Shown piece after piece: positions 25,373 to 62,288 of a stretch of 64,000 bases of DNA. Source of the stretch: Acidaminococcus fermentans (lineage in GTDB: Bacteria; Bacillota; Negativicutes; Acidaminococcales; Acidaminococcaceae). Below the pieces are notes generated by a model that saw only the letters and a list, made by a program, of their open reading frames with translations, did no database searches and was not told the origin of the DNA. A program made the position numbers and the translations under genes. The DNA is taken from positions 62,001 to 126,000 of the forward strand of contig NZ_VULN01000002.1 in NCBI RefSeq assembly GCF_009696675.1, in the 5' to 3' direction. Each line of letters opens with the position of its first letter. Position 1 is the stretch's first letter.

Positions 25373-25394
25373 AAAGCCCATAACAAAACATCAG

Positions 25395-25670
25395 ACAGTG
25401 TTGAATGGGAAAAGTACTTGTCCAGTCTCACATTCCAGAGAACCTGCCGCTTGGTGCGAGGCAGGATGCTGAGAGGAGAAGGAAAATCACCCAGGAGCTG
25501 CCCGCTGAAAGATTCCAAGTAAGTGGGGCCGGCTGACAGCCGTTATTCTGTCCGGCATTGGAAGGGAAATCCGGAGATGCTAGTAAAGAGGTCGCAGCAG
25601 CGACAACAAGAGTGGTACCGCAGAGCACAGCGCTTTGTCTCTTACAGGAGACAAAGCGCTTTTCTTTTTC
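25395..25670 (+). ncRNA. T-box leader, predicted isoleucine specifier (AUC)
   Basis: The T-box sequence AAGAGTGGTACCGC lies at 25608-25621. The terminator arms AGCGCTTTGTCTC and GAGACAAAGCGCT (25629-25641, 25648-25660) precede a T-rich tract. In stem I, TGGG (25406-25409) pairs with CCCA and AGTA (25413-25416) faces GAA (25482-25484). CTTGTCC pairs with GGAGAAG above the loop. The triplet after GAA-A is ATC at 25486-25488, followed by A. The UGGU bulge implies a tRNA with discriminator A, which fits tRNA-Ile and not tRNA-Asn (the alternative AAT reading). Uncharged tRNA should favour readthrough into the BASS gene. Confidence 0.85.
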
Positions 25671-55137: not shown

Positions 55138-56028
55138 TTATCCATTTTCAGGGGATGGGCGGCCAAGGACCAGGAACGGTCTGGATGCTTTTTCAGCTGC
55201 TTCCAGTACATGCCGGGCCAGTATGGCTGTAGTGACGGAACCGACGCCGCCGGGAACCGGGGTGATGGCGTCCACAATAGGGGATACGTTGGAAAAATCC
55301 ACATCGCCGCAGATTCCCCCGTTTTCTGCAGGGTTGATGCCCACATCGATGAGGGTCTGTCCTGGACGGACCATGGAGGCGGTAACCAGGTTCCGGCAGC
55401 CGGCGGCGGAAACGATGATGTCAGCGGACCGGCAGTACTTCCCCACATCTTTTGTCCGGATGTGGCAGATGGTGACGGTGGCTTCCCGTTTCAGAAATTC
55501 CATGGCAACAGGCCGGCCGATGACCAGGCTGGATCCGATTACCACCACATCCCTGCCTTTGACAGGGATATCGTAATGATCCAGGATTTCCATACAGGCA
55601 GCGGCGGTGCAGGGGGAATATCCGGTGGGAGCTCCGGTAAAAAGCCCGGCCAGAGATGCATCCGTGATTCCGTCCACGTCTTTTTCAGGGGCAAGAGAAG
55701 CCCGGATCAGAGCATCATCAAAAGCCGGTGGGAAAGGACGAAAAATCAGGCATCCGTGAATGGACATATCCTGATTGACCTGGCGGATCAGACGGAGCAG
55801 ATCCTGCTGTCGGCAGTTTTCCGGAAGGATCTGGGGACGGCAGGTGATGCCGATGCTGCTGCAGCGTTTCTGGATGCTGGTCTGATACCGTACATCACTG
55901 AGCCGGTTTCCAATCCGGATCAGGGCCAGGACCGGTTCCACACCTTTTTCTTTCAGCAGGGAAGCCTGGTTCTGCAGAGAGGGCAGCAGGGCTGCGCTTA
56001 CGGTTTTACCAATCAGTAATCTGGACAT
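55138..56028 (-). CDS. FolD-like methylenetetrahydrofolate dehydrogenase lacking cyclohydrolase residues
   Basis: A 296-residue FolD-family protein. NADP site IGSSLVIGRPVAM, KDVDG (folate Asp) and TPVPGGVGSVT are kept. The position of the catalytic Lys (E. coli Lys54, in YVxxK) holds Ile52 (YQTSI). The partner Gln of VQLPLP (E. coli Gln98) is Phe96 (LIFRPFP). In characterised FolD proteins this Lys is needed for cyclohydrolase but not for dehydrogenase, so a dehydrogenase-only or altered function is inferred. GGAGGAATATCC precedes the ATG. It has a leader with a terminator upstream. Confidence 0.88.
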   Translation of the reverse strand: MSRLLIGKTVSAALLPSLQNQASLLKEKGVEPVLALIRIGNRLSDVRYQTSIQKRCSSIGITCRPQILPENCRQQDLLRLIRQVNQDMSIHGCLIFRPFPPAFDDALIRASLAPEKDVDGITDASLAGLFTGAPTGYSPCTAAACMEILDHYDIPVKGRDVVVIGSSLVIGRPVAMEFLKREATVTICHIRTKDVGKYCRSADIIVSAAGCRNLVTASMVRPGQTLIDVGINPAENGGICGDVDFSNVSPIVDAITPVPGGVGSVTTAILARHVLEAAEKASRPFLVLGRPSPENG

Positions 56029-56057
56029 TGGATATTCCTCCTTGGCCTGACAGGAAA

Positions 56058-56192
56058 TAAAAAAGCCTGACGGCAGCTGCAGTGCAGTTGGTCAGGCCTT
56101 CTAAACAGAGGGTAATGAAGGAGATTCAGTACCCTGTCTATAAGGGGTTTGAAATTTGTTATACTATACCACAGCAAACAGGAATCCTGCAA
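56058..56192 (-). promoter_or_regulatory. Promoter and attenuator-like leader of the FolD-like/GltS-like transcript
   Basis: On the - strand, TTGCAG (56192-56187) and TATAGT (56168-56163) are 18 bases apart. The leader contains a hairpin built on TACCC...GGGTA (plus 56105-56114 with 56130-56137). It then has a 14-bp terminator (plus 56065-56071 with 56091-56097, CAGCTGC/GCAGTTG inside) followed by T7 before the ribosome site. The terminator precedes the coding start by about 30 bases. Confidence 0.7.
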
Positions 56193-56229: not shown

Positions 56230-56354
56230 TTGACAGAATAGCCGGACCATGCTATGATTCACCTAAATCGTCGAGTATATGGGTTGCAGGATAACCTTCT
56301 GGAACCGACATATGGGAGGCTGACAAAAGAGTTTTCTTTTTGTCGGCTTTTTTT
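56230..56354 (+). promoter_or_regulatory. Promoter and attenuator-like leader of the DUF3870/SHMT-like transcript
   Basis: A perfect TTGACA (56230-56235) and TATGAT (56253-56258) are 17 bases apart. The leader, from about 56265, can pair TATATG with CATATG around GGTT-GCAGGAT-AACC. A terminator GCTGACAAAA/TTTTTGTCGGC with T7 follows (56319-56354). CCGACA (56305-56310) can pair with TGTCGG (56341-56346) of the terminator, giving an alternative fold. I recognise no known riboswitch class. Confidence 0.7.
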
Positions 56355-56377: not shown

Positions 56378-56716
56378 ATGAGAGAATGTATCTATCCGGA
56401 AGATTCGGTCTTTGTGACCGGGGTGGCCAAAGTTACCCGGGAAGACGCCATCAATGCCATGTATGGTACGTTCAGCCTGAGCCTGATCATCGATGGACAC
56501 ACCGGGATGATCCTCAATGCCAGTGCCAATATGGTGATGCAGGATACGGTGGAGTTCCTGAAAGACATCCTGATAGGGCGCAATCTGCTGACAGATGGGG
56601 AAGCCGTTACGTTGATCTTAAAGAAACGGTTCCTGGCACTGTCACAAAAAGCCGTTATTACCGCTTTCAAGGATGCCCAGAATCATTTTCTGCTGGTGTA
56701 CCCACAGGCGAAATAA
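56378..56716 (+). CDS. DUF3870-domain protein
   Basis: A 112-residue protein. VFVTGVAKVTREDAINAMYGTFSLSLIIDGHTGMILNASANMVMQDTVEFLKDILIGRN and LSQKAVITAFKDAQNHFLLVY match the DUF3870 pattern. The function is unknown. It is the first gene after a terminator-containing leader and lies upstream of the SHMT-like gene in the same direction. Its base composition is more AT-rich than that of the flanking operons. Confidence 0.85.
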   Translation: MRECIYPEDSVFVTGVAKVTREDAINAMYGTFSLSLIIDGHTGMILNASANMVMQDTVEFLKDILIGRNLLTDGEAVTLILKKRFLALSQKAVITAFKDAQNHFLLVYPQAK

Positions 56717-56777
56717 GCACTCTTCTGCAGATTCTTTTTTAATGGGACTGGGATGACCTCTCAGTACTGTCTTGGGG

Positions 56778-56824
56778 AAGAACAGGCAGCTGTTGGATTT
56801 CAGCTGTATTGTTCTTCTTTTTTC
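56778..56824 (+). terminator. Intra-cassette terminator-like hairpin
   Basis: AAGAACA (56778-56784) pairs with TGTTCTT (56810-56816), and CAGCTG (56787-56792) with CAGCTG (56801-56806). CTTTTTTC follows. It would lower readthrough from the DUF3870 gene into the SHMT-like gene. Confidence 0.6.
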
Positions 56825-56863: not shown

Positions 56864-58192
56864 ATGAAACCTGTAAAACAAGATGCTGTAAAACTGCTGG
56901 ATATTTTCGATCCTGAAATGGCCAGTCTGCTGCATAGAGAAGAAAAAAGGCAGTTCGAAACCATTGGCCTGATCGCCTCTGAGAATGTGGCATCTCCGTT
57001 GTCCACCTGCCTGGAAGGATCCGTATTCACCAACAAAAATACGGAAGGGTATCCGGGAAAACGGTTCGTGGGAGGCTGTGAACTGGCGGATCAGGCGGAA
57101 CTGCTGGCCTTGGAAAGAGTCAAAAAAGTCTTTGGGGCAGAACATGCCAATATCCAGTCTGGCAATGCGACGATTGCCAATTGCGCCGTACTGACCGGTC
57201 TTCTGGAAAGAGGAGATACTTTTTTAGGATTGACTCTGGATAATGGAGGCCATTTAAGCCATGGAGCCAAATTCCATTACAGTGGGCGGGAGTTCAATGC
57301 CCTTCACTATGGTGTCAACCGGGAAACAGAACGGATCGATATGGATCAGGTTCGCCAGATGGCGTTGGAACATCATCCCAAACTGATTGTTACCGGGGCT
57401 TCTTCTTATCCCCGTATGATTGACTATGCAGGATTCCGGTCCATCTGTGACGAAGTGGGGGCCTATTTCTGGGTTGACTGTGCTCACGATATCGGGCTCA
57501 TTGCAGGCGGTGCCATTCCCAGTCCCGTACCCTATGCGGATGTGGTGACATTCTCTACCCAGAAAACGCTCCGGGGGCCCCGGGGCTGTGGAGTGATCCT
57601 GTGCAAAGAGGCTCTGGGGAAGAAAATCGACAGAGGGGTCTTTCCCCGTATCCAGGGCGGGCCCAAAGGGGATATGCTGGCCGCCAGAGGCGTGCTGTTT
57701 TTGGAACTGATGCAGCCGGAATTCCGGACCTATGCCCATCAGGTGGTGAAAAATGCCAAGGCACTGGCCAAAGGCTGTGCGGATGAAGGGATGCGGCTGA
57801 TTACCGGCGGGACGGATACCCACATGGTTATGCTGGATGTGACGCCGGTCATTGCCAATGGACAGCTGGCGGAGACACTGCTGGCCAGCGTGGGAATCAT
57901 CACCAACAAGAACATGATCCCCTATGATACGCTGCCTCCCAGTCTTGGCAGTGGGCTGCGCATCGGTTCTCCCACCATGACCACCCGGGGTGCAAAGGAA
58001 GAGGAGATGTATGAAATCGGCCGGCTGCTGGGAAAGGTGTTGAAGAACAAAGACAATGAAGAGTTGCTGGAACAGGTAAAGCAGGAAGTCCGTCAGCTGG
58101 CCGTCAGCCATCCCATGTTTTCCAGTGAATGGATGCCGGAAAAAATCAGGGCCCAGTTCGATGCCATGTACTGTCACGAAACCTTTGAATAA
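56864..58192 (+). CDS. Serine hydroxymethyltransferase-like PLP enzyme with altered active site
   Basis: A protein of about 442 residues with the SHMT fold: IGLIASENVASP, EGYPGKR, GGHLSHGAKFHYSG, the PLP Asp/His in VDCAHDIGL, the PLP Lys in STQKTLRGPRG (Lys234) and the carboxylate Arg in GLRIGSPT. Residues that differ from E. coli GlyA are Tyr55 to Asn59, Tyr64-Tyr65 to Phe68-Val69, and His228 to Gln233 beside the Lys. The enzyme is therefore likely active on an amino acid but not necessarily as a serine-THF transferase. AAAGGAG is spaced for the ATG at 56864. A normal GlyA is not in the window. Confidence 0.85.
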   Translation: MKPVKQDAVKLLDIFDPEMASLLHREEKRQFETIGLIASENVASPLSTCLEGSVFTNKNTEGYPGKRFVGGCELADQAELLALERVKKVFGAEHANIQSGNATIANCAVLTGLLERGDTFLGLTLDNGGHLSHGAKFHYSGREFNALHYGVNRETERIDMDQVRQMALEHHPKLIVTGASSYPRMIDYAGFRSICDEVGAYFWVDCAHDIGLIAGGAIPSPVPYADVVTFSTQKTLRGPRGCGVILCKEALGKKIDRGVFPRIQGGPKGDMLAARGVLFLELMQPEFRTYAHQVVKNAKALAKGCADEGMRLITGGTDTHMVMLDVTPVIANGQLAETLLASVGIITNKNMIPYDTLPPSLGSGLRIGSPTMTTRGAKEEEMYEIGRLLGKVLKNKDNEELLEQVKQEVRQLAVSHPMFSSEWMPEKIRAQFDAMYCHETFE

Positions 58193-59044: not shown

Positions 59045-59950
59045 ATGGCGAAAAAATTGGTTGAATTTGTTCCGAATTTCAGTGAAGGCCGGGATAAGGA
59101 AAAGGTTGAAAAGATCGTTGACGAAGCCCGCAAGATCAAAGGGCTGAAGATCCTGGATTACTCCAGCGATGCTGACCACAACCGTTCTGTCGTCACCATC
59201 ATCGGTTCTCCTGAAGCGGTTACGGAAGCAGCCATCAACATGGCCAAAGTTGCCATCCAGCTGATCGATATGCGGACCCACCATGGGGCTCATCCCCGGT
59301 TCGGTGCCGTGGACGTGGTTCCCTTCACTCCGGTGATGGGCGTGACCATGGACGAATGCGTGGCCATTGCCAATGCTGTGGGCAAGGCTTATGGGGAAAT
59401 GGGCATCCCTGTGTATCTGTATGAAGATGCCTGCACCAAGGAAGCCCGCCGGAACCTGGCTGCAGTACGGAAAGGCCAGTACGAAGGCTTCTTTGAAAAG
59501 ATCAAGGATCCGGAATGGAAACCGGATTACGGCCCTGCCGTCATGAACGAAAAATCCGGCTGTTCCGCTGTAGGCGCCCGGGTGCCTCTGGTGGCCTTCA
59601 ACGTGAACCTGGACTGCAGCGACAAAGCGGTAGCCGATGCCATTGCCCGGAAAGTCCGGAACATCGGCGGCGGTCTCCACTATGTAAAGGCCATGGGCGT
59701 GAAACTGGAAGAACGGAACCAGGTACAGGTTTCCATGAACTTGGTGAACTACGAAAAATCCGCTGTGTACCAGGCTTTTGAAATGATCAAGATGGAAGCC
59801 CGCCGGTACGGCGTCAATGTGGTGGGCAGCGAAGTCATCGGGACCGTTCCCATGAAGGCCCTGCTGATGGCTGCAGAATATTATCTGCAGATTGAAAACT
59901 TCAACCTGGACGAAATCCTGGAAAAACGGCTGCTGGAACTGGAAGAGTAA
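59045..59950 (+). CDS. ftcD: Glutamate formimidoyltransferase
   Basis: A 301-residue enzyme that moves the formimino group of N-formiminoglutamate, the product of histidine breakdown, to tetrahydrofolate. VEFVPNFSEGRDKEKVEKI at the start and LDYSSDADHNRSVVTIIG are family signatures, with HHGAHPRFGAVDVVPFTP in the folate and substrate site. Only the transferase domain is present; the cyclodeaminase part is the separate gene at 61668. It heads the three-gene operon. Confidence 0.95.
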   Translation: MAKKLVEFVPNFSEGRDKEKVEKIVDEARKIKGLKILDYSSDADHNRSVVTIIGSPEAVTEAAINMAKVAIQLIDMRTHHGAHPRFGAVDVVPFTPVMGVTMDECVAIANAVGKAYGEMGIPVYLYEDACTKEARRNLAAVRKGQYEGFFEKIKDPEWKPDYGPAVMNEKSGCSAVGARVPLVAFNVNLDCSDKAVADAIARKVRNIGGGLHYVKAMGVKLEERNQVQVSMNLVNYEKSAVYQAFEMIKMEARRYGVNVVGSEVIGTVPMKALLMAAEYYLQIENFNLDEILEKRLLELEE

Positions 59951-59977
59951 CAAGTCGGTCCACAAGGAGGAAATTCG

Positions 59978-61648
59978 ATGCTGAGCGATATCGAGATTGC
60001 GCAAAAGAATGTGATGGAACCCATCAGCAAGATTGCTGACAAAGTGGGGATCCTGCCGGAAGAACTGGAACAGTACGGTCATTACAAAGGAAAAATTTCT
60101 CTGGATGTGCTGAAACGTCTGGAAAACAAACCCAACGGGAAACTGGTGCTGGTCACTGCCATTACCCCTACCCCTGCCGGGGAAGGAAAATCCACCACCA
60201 GCATCGGCCTGGCCCAGGCTCTGAACCGGGTGGGCAAAAAGGCTGTGGTGGCCCTTCGTGAACCGTCCCTGGGACCTGTGTTCGGGATCAAGGGCGGGGC
60301 TGCCGGCGGCGGTTATGCCCAGGTGGTTCCCATGGATGACATCAACCTCCATTTCACCGGAGACATGCATGCCATTACTGCAGCCAACAACCTGCTGTCC
60401 GCTATGATCGACAACCACATCCATCACGGCAACGAACTGCGGCTGGATGCCCGTCAGATCACCTGGCGCCGGGTCATGGACATGAACGACCGTGCCCTGC
60501 GGAACGTGGTGGTGGGCCTGGGGGGCAAAGTCTGCGGGTTCCCCCGTCAGGATGCCTTCACCATTACCGTGGCTTCTGAAATCATGGCCATCCTGTGCCT
60601 GGCCAAAGACCTGGAAGACCTGAAAGCCCGGTTCGGCCGGATCGTCATCGGCTGCGACCTGGACGGGAATCCGGTCCATGTACACCAGCTGGGCTGCGAA
60701 GGGGCCATGGCCATGCTCATGAAGGATGCCATCAAACCGAACCTGGTCCAGACCCTGGAACACACTCCGGCCATTATCCACGGGGGGCCTTTTGCCAACA
60801 TCGCCCACGGGTGCAACTCCCTCCTGGCCACCAAGATGGCCCTGAAACTGGGCGACATTGCCATTACGGAAGCCGGCTTCGGTGCTGACCTGGGTGCTGA
60901 AAAATTCATGGACATCAAATGCCATTACGGCAACATCTATCCGGATGCAGTGGTGCTGGTTGCCACCATCCGTGCCCTGAAGATGCACGGGGGCGTCGCC
61001 AAGGCTGATCTGAGCCAGGAAAATGTCCAGGCTGTCAGCGACGGGTTCTCCAACCTGGCCAAACAGGTGGAAAACATGCGGACCTTCGGGCTGCCGGTCC
61101 TGGTGGCCATCAACAAGTTCGCCACGGATACTCCGGCGGAAATCGACATGCTGCTCCAGAAATGCGCCAGCTACGGAGTGGAAGTCAGCCTGAACGAATG
61201 CTGGGAAAAAGGCGGCGAAGGCGGCATCGACATGGCCAACAAACTGGTGGCCATGCTGGAAGAACAGGCTCCGGAAAAAGTGGAACTGTACGATGTGAAC
61301 GATACCATCCCCAACAAGCTGAAGGCCATTGTGACCAAGATCTATGGCGGTGACGGAGTGACCTTTACCCCCAATGCCAAGAAACAGATCAAACAGCTGG
61401 AAGACTGGGGACTGGACAAACTGCCGGTGTGCGTGGCCAAGACCCAGTATTCCCTCAGTGACAATCCGGCTCTCCTGGGCGCTCCCAAAGGGTTCAAGAT
61501 CAATGTCCAGGATGTGCGGGTATCCAACGGGGCAGGGTTCATTGTCTGCCAGACCAGCAACATCATGGTAATGCCCGGCCTGCCCAAGAAACCGGCGGCC
61601 CTGAAGATGGACATCGACAACAACGGCAAGATCTACGGCCTGTTCTGA
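59978..61648 (+). CDS. fhs: Formate-tetrahydrofolate ligase
   Basis: A 556-residue enzyme. [21 protein letters not shown] carries the ATP site, and [35 protein letters not shown] is the family signature. In this setting it would run from 10-formyl-THF to formate with ATP synthesis, though the reverse direction is equally catalysed by the family. GAGGAAATTCG precedes the ATG. It lies 27 bases after ftcD. Confidence 0.97.
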
Positions 61649-61667
61649 GCAGGGAGGAAAGGATCCT

Positions 61668-62288
61668 ATGGAATTACGCAAACTGACAGTGGAAGGATTC
61701 ATCAATGAAACGGCCTCGTCTTCTCCGGCTCCCGGAGGGGGCAGCATTGCAGCCCTGAACGCTTCTTCTTCCGCCGCCCTGATCGCGATGGTGGCCAACC
61801 TGACCCTGGGCAAGGAAAAGTATGCGGCTGTGGAAGGGGACATGAAGGATGTGGCGGCCAAAGCCACGGCCCTGAAAGATGATTTCCTGGCCCTCATTGA
61901 TGAGGACAGCAACGCTTTCAATAAAATCATGGCAGCCTTCAAGCTGCCGAAGGATACGGACGAAGCCAAGAAAGCCCGGAGCGCGGCCATCCAGGAAGCC
62001 ACCAAGGGCGCAGCCCTGGTGCCCTTCAAGGTGGGCCAGAAAGCCAACGAGCTGTTTGCTCTGGCAGAAACCGTGATCACCAAAGGCAACCAGAACGCCA
62101 TCACCGATGGGGCAGTGGCGGCCATGAATGCACGGGCTGCCGTACGGGGAGCCTTCCTGAACGTAAAGATCAACCTGGGCAGCATCAAGGATGCTCTGTT
62201 CGTGGAAGATCTGAAAAAGAGAATGGCTGAAATCGAAGCCGATGTGGATGCCAGAGAACAGGCACTGCTGGGCAAGGTGAAGCTGTAA
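61668..62288 (+). CDS. fchA: Cyclodeaminase/methenyltetrahydrofolate cyclohydrolase (FchA family)
   Basis: A 206-residue helical protein. FINETASSSPAPGGGSIAALNASSSAALIAMVANLTLG is the family signature. It would turn 5-formimino-THF to 5,10-methenyl-THF and/or methenyl-THF to 10-formyl-THF, linking FtcD to Fhs. It lies 19 bases after fhs. Because the FolD-like protein at 55138 lacks cyclohydrolase residues, this enzyme may also supply that step for it. Confidence 0.95.
   Translation: MELRKLTVEGFINETASSSPAPGGGSIAALNASSSAALIAMVANLTLGKEKYAAVEGDMKDVAAKATALKDDFLALIDEDSNAFNKIMAAFKLPKDTDEAKKARSAAIQEATKGAALVPFKVGQKANELFALAETVITKGNQNAITDGAVAAMNARAAVRGAFLNVKINLGSIKDALFVEDLKKRMAEIEADVDAREQALLGKVKL

Follow-up and report, generated by a model that had tools for sequence, protein, structure and literature searches.

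We asked which kind of regulatory RNA precedes the operon for a DUF3870 protein and a second SHMT paralog in a 64,000-nt stretch of Acidaminococcus fermentans DNA (the window). A first-pass annotation had proposed a new riboswitch or attenuator here, made up of a consensus promoter, a compact foldable region and an intrinsic terminator before the first gene. All three parts were found, and the foldable element occurs in three copies:

55138..56028, minus strand: gene for FolD (methylene-THF dehydrogenase/cyclohydrolase)
56056..56101, minus strand: intrinsic terminator 3, -20.2 kcal/mol, sharing the final 6 nt of element copy 3
56096..56146, minus strand: RNA element copy 3, before FolD, loop UCUCC, P0 CCUU/AAGG
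56230..56258, plus strand: sigma-70-type promoter of the DUF3870-SHMT operon, TTGACA-17-TATGAT, 11/12 consensus positions
56270..56320, plus strand: RNA element copy 1 (candidate antiterminator), 51 nt, with covariation in alignments A4 and A12, co-transcriptional folds and 57.1 bits with covariance model R3 (training member)
56316..56354, plus strand: intrinsic terminator 1, GAGGCUGACAAAAGAGUUUUCUUUUUGUCGGCUUU then U run, -15.4 kcal/mol
56378..56716, plus strand: gene for the DUF3870 protein (PF12986, E 2.3e-27), 112 aa
56732..56782, plus strand: RNA element copy 2, in the DUF3870-SHMT gap, loop UGACC, R3 52.4 bits (training member)
56776..56823, plus strand: intrinsic terminator 2, -22.4 kcal/mol, sharing the final 7 nt of element copy 2
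56864..58192, plus strand: second SHMT paralog, sharing 47-48% identity with the other SHMT copy of the genus

The promoter carries a TG before its -10, which ends 11 nt upstream of element copy 1, and this promoter-element arrangement is kept in two relatives (alignment A6). The 90-nt leader from about 56265 was predicted to fold at -30.1 kcal/mol (z -4.06), a value equalled by none of 200 dinucleotide shuffles. Terminator 1 was overlooked by a simple terminator scan. Copy 1 consists of P0 (56270-56272/56318-56320, 5′ GUC with GGC), P1 (56277-56281/56309-56313), a 2-nt GA bulge on the 3′ side (56307-56308), a 10-bp P2 (56282-56291/56297-56306) and a 5-nt loop, UAACC (56292-56296). Its GGC at 56318-56320 is both the 3′ strand of P0 and the foot of terminator 1, the 5′ arm of which takes up the final 5 nt of the element; because of these shared nucleotides, the two structures exclude each other. 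The first-pass annotation had likewise proposed two exclusive states, resting on a pairing of CCGACA (56305-56310) with TGTCGG (56341-56346). These motifs are present and complementary, but the pairing has no counterpart in the two closest homologous leaders, those of Acidaminococcus provencensis and of a record named Clostridium transplantifaecale (A6), and we rejected it as a conserved switch. The idea of exclusive states was borne out with another pair, the conserved one being GUC 56270-56272 with GGC 56318-56320.

These two leaders came from searches with DUF3870, which identified two further loci with the same gene order, one in A. provencensis (L045/L002) and one in the C. transplantifaecale record (L046). 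Their SHMT and DUF3870 proteins show 84-86% and 66-72% identity, respectively, and an ungapped 51-nt block (GUCGA...AGGC) is kept in all three orthologous leaders. In the alignment of the three (A4), 95.6% of the cells were paired and three compensatory pairs were found, against 0-1 in slid controls. Several G-U changes were found beside the compensatory ones. In stepwise folding of the three leaders, the GUC-GGC pair was predicted before the terminator emerges and was lost afterwards. The L046 locus lies in a 5.7-Mb record and is Acidaminococcus-like, with genes for GltS, MurI, FolD, DUF3870, SHMT and glutamate dehydrogenase; it reflects either transfer or a mixed assembly.

A geometric scan of the window for a hairpin plus T run gave three such hairpins, all within 56.05-56.83 kb, which precede DUF3870, SHMT and, on the opposite strand, FolD. 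Copy 2 ranked top among 128k window positions for the exact geometry, and its UUCUUUUUUAA pairs with UUGGGGAAGAA, the terminator foot. Copy 3 scored 17.8 bits with R2, a covariance model trained only on the leaders of the window, A. provencensis and C. transplantifaecale, and 52.5 bits with R3, of which it is a training member. In the genome that the window comes from, R3 found the three window copies and no others. Alignment A12 is one gapless 51-column frame, one inserted base having been removed from each of the G030 copy and the C. transplantifaecale SHMT copy, and shows a double-sided change in 16/22 pairs. Three of its training sequences (window SHMT, window FolD and G030) were first spotted by the hairpin scan, so that its P2 covariation is inflated, and random sequence attained similar pair counts. 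As part of A12 was picked by the hairpin scan, our case does not rest on its pair counts; A4 and the untrained set described below are free of this selection bias.

Two other features of the window were recorded. A T-box leader (RF00230) lies at 25392-25645 on the plus strand (119.5 bits). Downstream of the operon, genes for FtcD, formate-THF ligase and FchA are grouped at 59045-62288 on the plus strand, with a HutD-like gene on the opposite strand; this group is a one-carbon/histidine degradation neighbourhood.

In A. provencensis, R2 matched the gap between DUF3870 and SHMT (E 3e-5); it also matched a leader in G030, which belongs to a different family within the class (E 2e-4). These E-values, like those of all our covariance-model searches, rest on a shortened calibration. 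Searches of the family and class with R1 and R2 gave close copies only, and broader recovery required R3. Across 380 genomes of the class, R3 gave 15 matches in 10 genomes at E<=0.01, including untrained copies in G310, G292 (two), G307, G304 (two), G312, G314 and G315; a third G304 copy scored 22.6 bits. Among 398 sampled genomes from the phylum, R3 additionally matched G711, outside the class (E 6e-7). The untrained copies span four other Negativicutes families and this one genome outside the class. A DUF3870 gene adjoins every listed copy. In an alignment of 11 untrained sequences (A14), which was fitted to the model, 92.9% was paired and double-sided changes were counted in 7 pairs, where shuffles gave 1.8 (0/500). 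De novo RNAalifold prediction on a MAFFT alignment of the same sequences, which was not fitted, returned the same hairpin, including the 3′ GA bulge. Across families, primary sequence is kept in P0/P1 and the bulge beyond the needs of pairing. The bulge purines (GA/AA) and the lower helix are kept in most copies, the well-conserved unpaired positions number only two, and beyond the window's group neither the length nor the sequence of the apical loop is constant.

A search of Rfam 15 gave no match over the window elements at either the gathering threshold or a relaxed E-value, the stray best matches being attributable to chance, and none near the untrained copies; the first-pass annotation had likewise seen no fit to purine, THF, glycine, SAM, ZTP or preQ1 consensus patterns. 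In the main texts of openly accessible papers, we found no description of the element, and DUF3870 appeared there only in an unrelated context. We are highly confident that a conserved attenuator exists as described. The RNA family is real, absent from Rfam and apparently undescribed.

Leaders of similar appearance were seen before murI in other Acidaminococcus (L006, L007, L008 and L033) and before gltS in A. provencensis (L002, about 1762-1810), with CCUUA...UAAGG around a hairpin and then a GGCCUGA-type terminator. The R3 genome search did not recover them (best 14.7 bits), and since they are not significant with R3 we left them out of the count. In G026, a genome of the same order, two near-identical tandem hairpin-plus-terminator leaders lie before a DUF3870 gene (L022, 1882-1946 and 2052-2116, minus strand), with loop CAAAA, a 10-bp upper helix and a weak R2 score.

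In each of the 20 copies examined, a hairpin follows with its 5′ arm overlapping the element. By script, the terminator 5′ arm begins within the final 3-14 nt of the element in 18/20; the remaining two, before DUF3870 and murI in G304, have this hairpin too, by inspection, but their U tract is interrupted. P0 was closed in 20/20 when the element was folded alone, and the predicted minimum-free-energy structure opened it fully or partly in most copies once downstream sequence was added. A point against the antiterminator reading is that P0 in the DUF3870 leaders amounts to just 3 bp with mismatches. In several copies, a promoter lies upstream, its -10 ending 7-19 nt before the element. None precedes the SHMT copies in the window group, which are probably transcribed from the DUF3870 promoter.

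In our reading, the element belongs to a conserved cis-regulatory RNA family that probably acts by antitermination. The RNA, about 51 nt long, starts near the transcript 5′ end and folds as a single hairpin, with up to 12 bp in P0/P1, a 3′ bulge of 2 nt, about 10 bp in P2 and a loop that most often has 5 nt. The P0 3′ strand doubles as the terminator foot, so that hairpin and terminator are mutually exclusive. Fold, covariation, terminator overlap, recurrence and gene association are shown by the analysis, and the direction of control and the factor are inferred. When no signal is present, the terminator, as the more stable structure, would win and the gene would be off, while a factor keeping the hairpin closed would allow readthrough, as in BglG/RAT systems. 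On balance we favour the reading that the element is an antiterminator stabilised by a factor. A protein looks likelier as this factor than a metabolite, because it is the lower helix and bulge that are conserved, and the loop is variable.

The genes that follow the copies are mostly SHMT, diaminopentanoate-dehydrogenase (DAPDH)-like, gltS or murI. SHMT is downstream in G307 and G304, and a DAPDH-like gene (PF19328) in G030, G310, G292, G312/314/315 and G711. Where scanned, the DAPDH-like proteins do not reach the NCBIfam cut-off that marks true Ord; in G310, G312, G314, G315 and G711, the call is based on the protein start only, matched by eye to the scanned ones. Other downstream genes encode glutamate racemase (G304), GltS (G292) and DUF3870 itself (G304). 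The apparent regulon is thus wider than folate and includes gltS, murI, DAPDH-like genes and DUF3870 itself, and the shared hairpin probably decides the transcription of these amino-acid/one-carbon genes in several Bacillota families. A Pfam match places a member of the FlK (fluoroacetyl-CoA thioesterase) family near DUF3870-[RNA]-DAPDH-like in G315, and G314 and G312 encode a similar protein at the corresponding position (loci L096, L097 and L099).

Since DUF3870 adjoins every listed copy, it is a candidate, if a weak one, for the factor that stabilises the hairpin. DUF3870 had no match among PDB sequences, and its AlphaFold model resembles IscU/SufU folds (best Z 9.0). This predicted IscU-like fold is no RNA-binding signature, and we derive no function from it; DUF3870 could just as well serve the pathway as an enzyme or accessory protein. 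The bolder proposal, that DUF3870 proteins are RNA-binding antitermination regulators of a hitherto unrecognised family which bind the GA-bulged hairpin, sense a glutamate/serine one-carbon metabolite and turn on their own cluster, is in our judgement improbable.

Other explanations of the same leaders were weighed against an antiterminator stabilised by a factor. If the element were a metabolite riboswitch, the bulged hairpin would be a very small aptamer for an amino acid or one-carbon metabolite, and binding would close P0 and block termination. The arrangement of the leader is in the style of aptamer and terminator, the regulon is metabolic (SHMT, FolD, GltS, MurI and DAPDH-like), the purine bulge and lower helix are kept in most copies, and very small terminator-coupled riboswitches are known, e.g. 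HMP-PP (PMC6478431). However, only two unpaired positions are well conserved, the apical loop is variable outside the window's group, and no known riboswitch in Rfam matches. Of the first-pass proposal of a new riboswitch or attenuator, the attenuator thus stands, with conserved structure, exclusive states and no Rfam match, while a strict riboswitch is neither shown nor favoured, because the core is a bulged helix and not an aptamer built of several stems and rich in conserved unpaired bases; we estimate its chance at about one in four. That no sensing takes place, and hairpin and terminator merely set a fixed readthrough ratio, would agree with a sensor that is so far only postulated and with a terminator that dominates the predicted folds of most copies. 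The conservation of P0/P1 and bulge sequence across families beyond the pairing requirement and the specific gene association speak against such a constitutive partial attenuator, which we consider unlikely.

The inverted repeat could also act as DNA, as a transcription factor site downstream of the promoter, and its position near the start site fits this. But the one-sided changes that preserve pairing in the three orthologous leaders are all to or from G-U, as expected for RNA, and a terminator hairpin accompanies the repeat in every copy, making a DNA operator very unlikely. Attenuation by a translated leader peptide has almost no probability in our view: by inspection, the window leader does contain a short open reading frame (ATG GGT TGC AGG ... 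TGA), but there is no ribosome-binding site in the 5′ end of about 16 nt, the peptide is not conserved, and the C. transplantifaecale leader has no ATG (A6, by inspection). Two smaller ideas were dropped, a pseudoknot between the loop CC and AGG, as the loop is variable outside the window's group, and a CsrA-like GGA site, as the GGA is paired.

The element unites DUF3870, an extra SHMT, a DAPDH-like enzyme, GltS and MurI in one apparent regulon that spans Acidaminococcus and other Bacillota, under an RNA family outside Rfam. It offers a short, testable handle on the role of DUF3870 and its clusters, and may lead to a new sensing protein or a small aptamer.

Among known systems, the THF, ZTP, glycine, SAM, purine and preQ1 models of Rfam 15 were not reached by the elements at the gathering threshold. 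The pfl/ZTP (PMC2864571) and tetrahydrofolate riboswitches share the association with glyA, folD and one-carbon genes, but cmscan gave no match of either to the element, relaxed thresholds included. The HMP-PP (thiS) riboswitch is likewise very compact, coupled to an intrinsic terminator and read through when bound (PMC6478431); its aptamer sits inside the terminator stem, whereas our hairpin lies upstream, competes for the terminator foot and has no Rfam match. The gltD and ldh2 motifs are also rare candidate cis-regulatory RNAs of Negativicutes, but they are proposed to hide a ribosome-binding site and precede gltD and Ldh_2 genes, and the ldh2 motif is a three-stem junction, unlike the element (PMC8632094).

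In ANTAR systems (EutV, NasR and AmiR), as here, a hairpin before the terminator excludes it and a regulon has multiple copies. Each of their leaders has a pair of hairpins, the hexanucleotide loops of which carry A in position 1 and G in position 4 (PMC3369931), whereas the element is one long hairpin with a loop of usually 5 nt (UAACC, UGACC, UCUCC) and without A1/G4. The RAT leaders of BglG, SacY and LicT resemble the element in their imperfect hairpin, the 3′ end of which is the intrinsic terminator foot, in their exclusive states, in tandem copies within an operon and in a regulator gene beside the target (PMC9981650, PMC12628678). The RAT consensus GGATTGTTACTG-N6-CAGGCRARACC (PMC12628678) had 0 matches in the window at up to 3 mismatches, no BglG-type protein was found among the neighbour genes examined, and RAT leaders serve PTS sugars where our genes are amino-acid/one-carbon. 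An antiterminator hairpin overlapping the terminator foot is common to both as shared logic, not as membership. If the proposed role of DUF3870 were true, it would add another type to the hairpin-binding antiterminators, alongside the BglG and ANTAR proteins. The element itself shows the structural trait of a transcription attenuator, with conserved alternative folds that exclude each other ahead of an intrinsic terminator.
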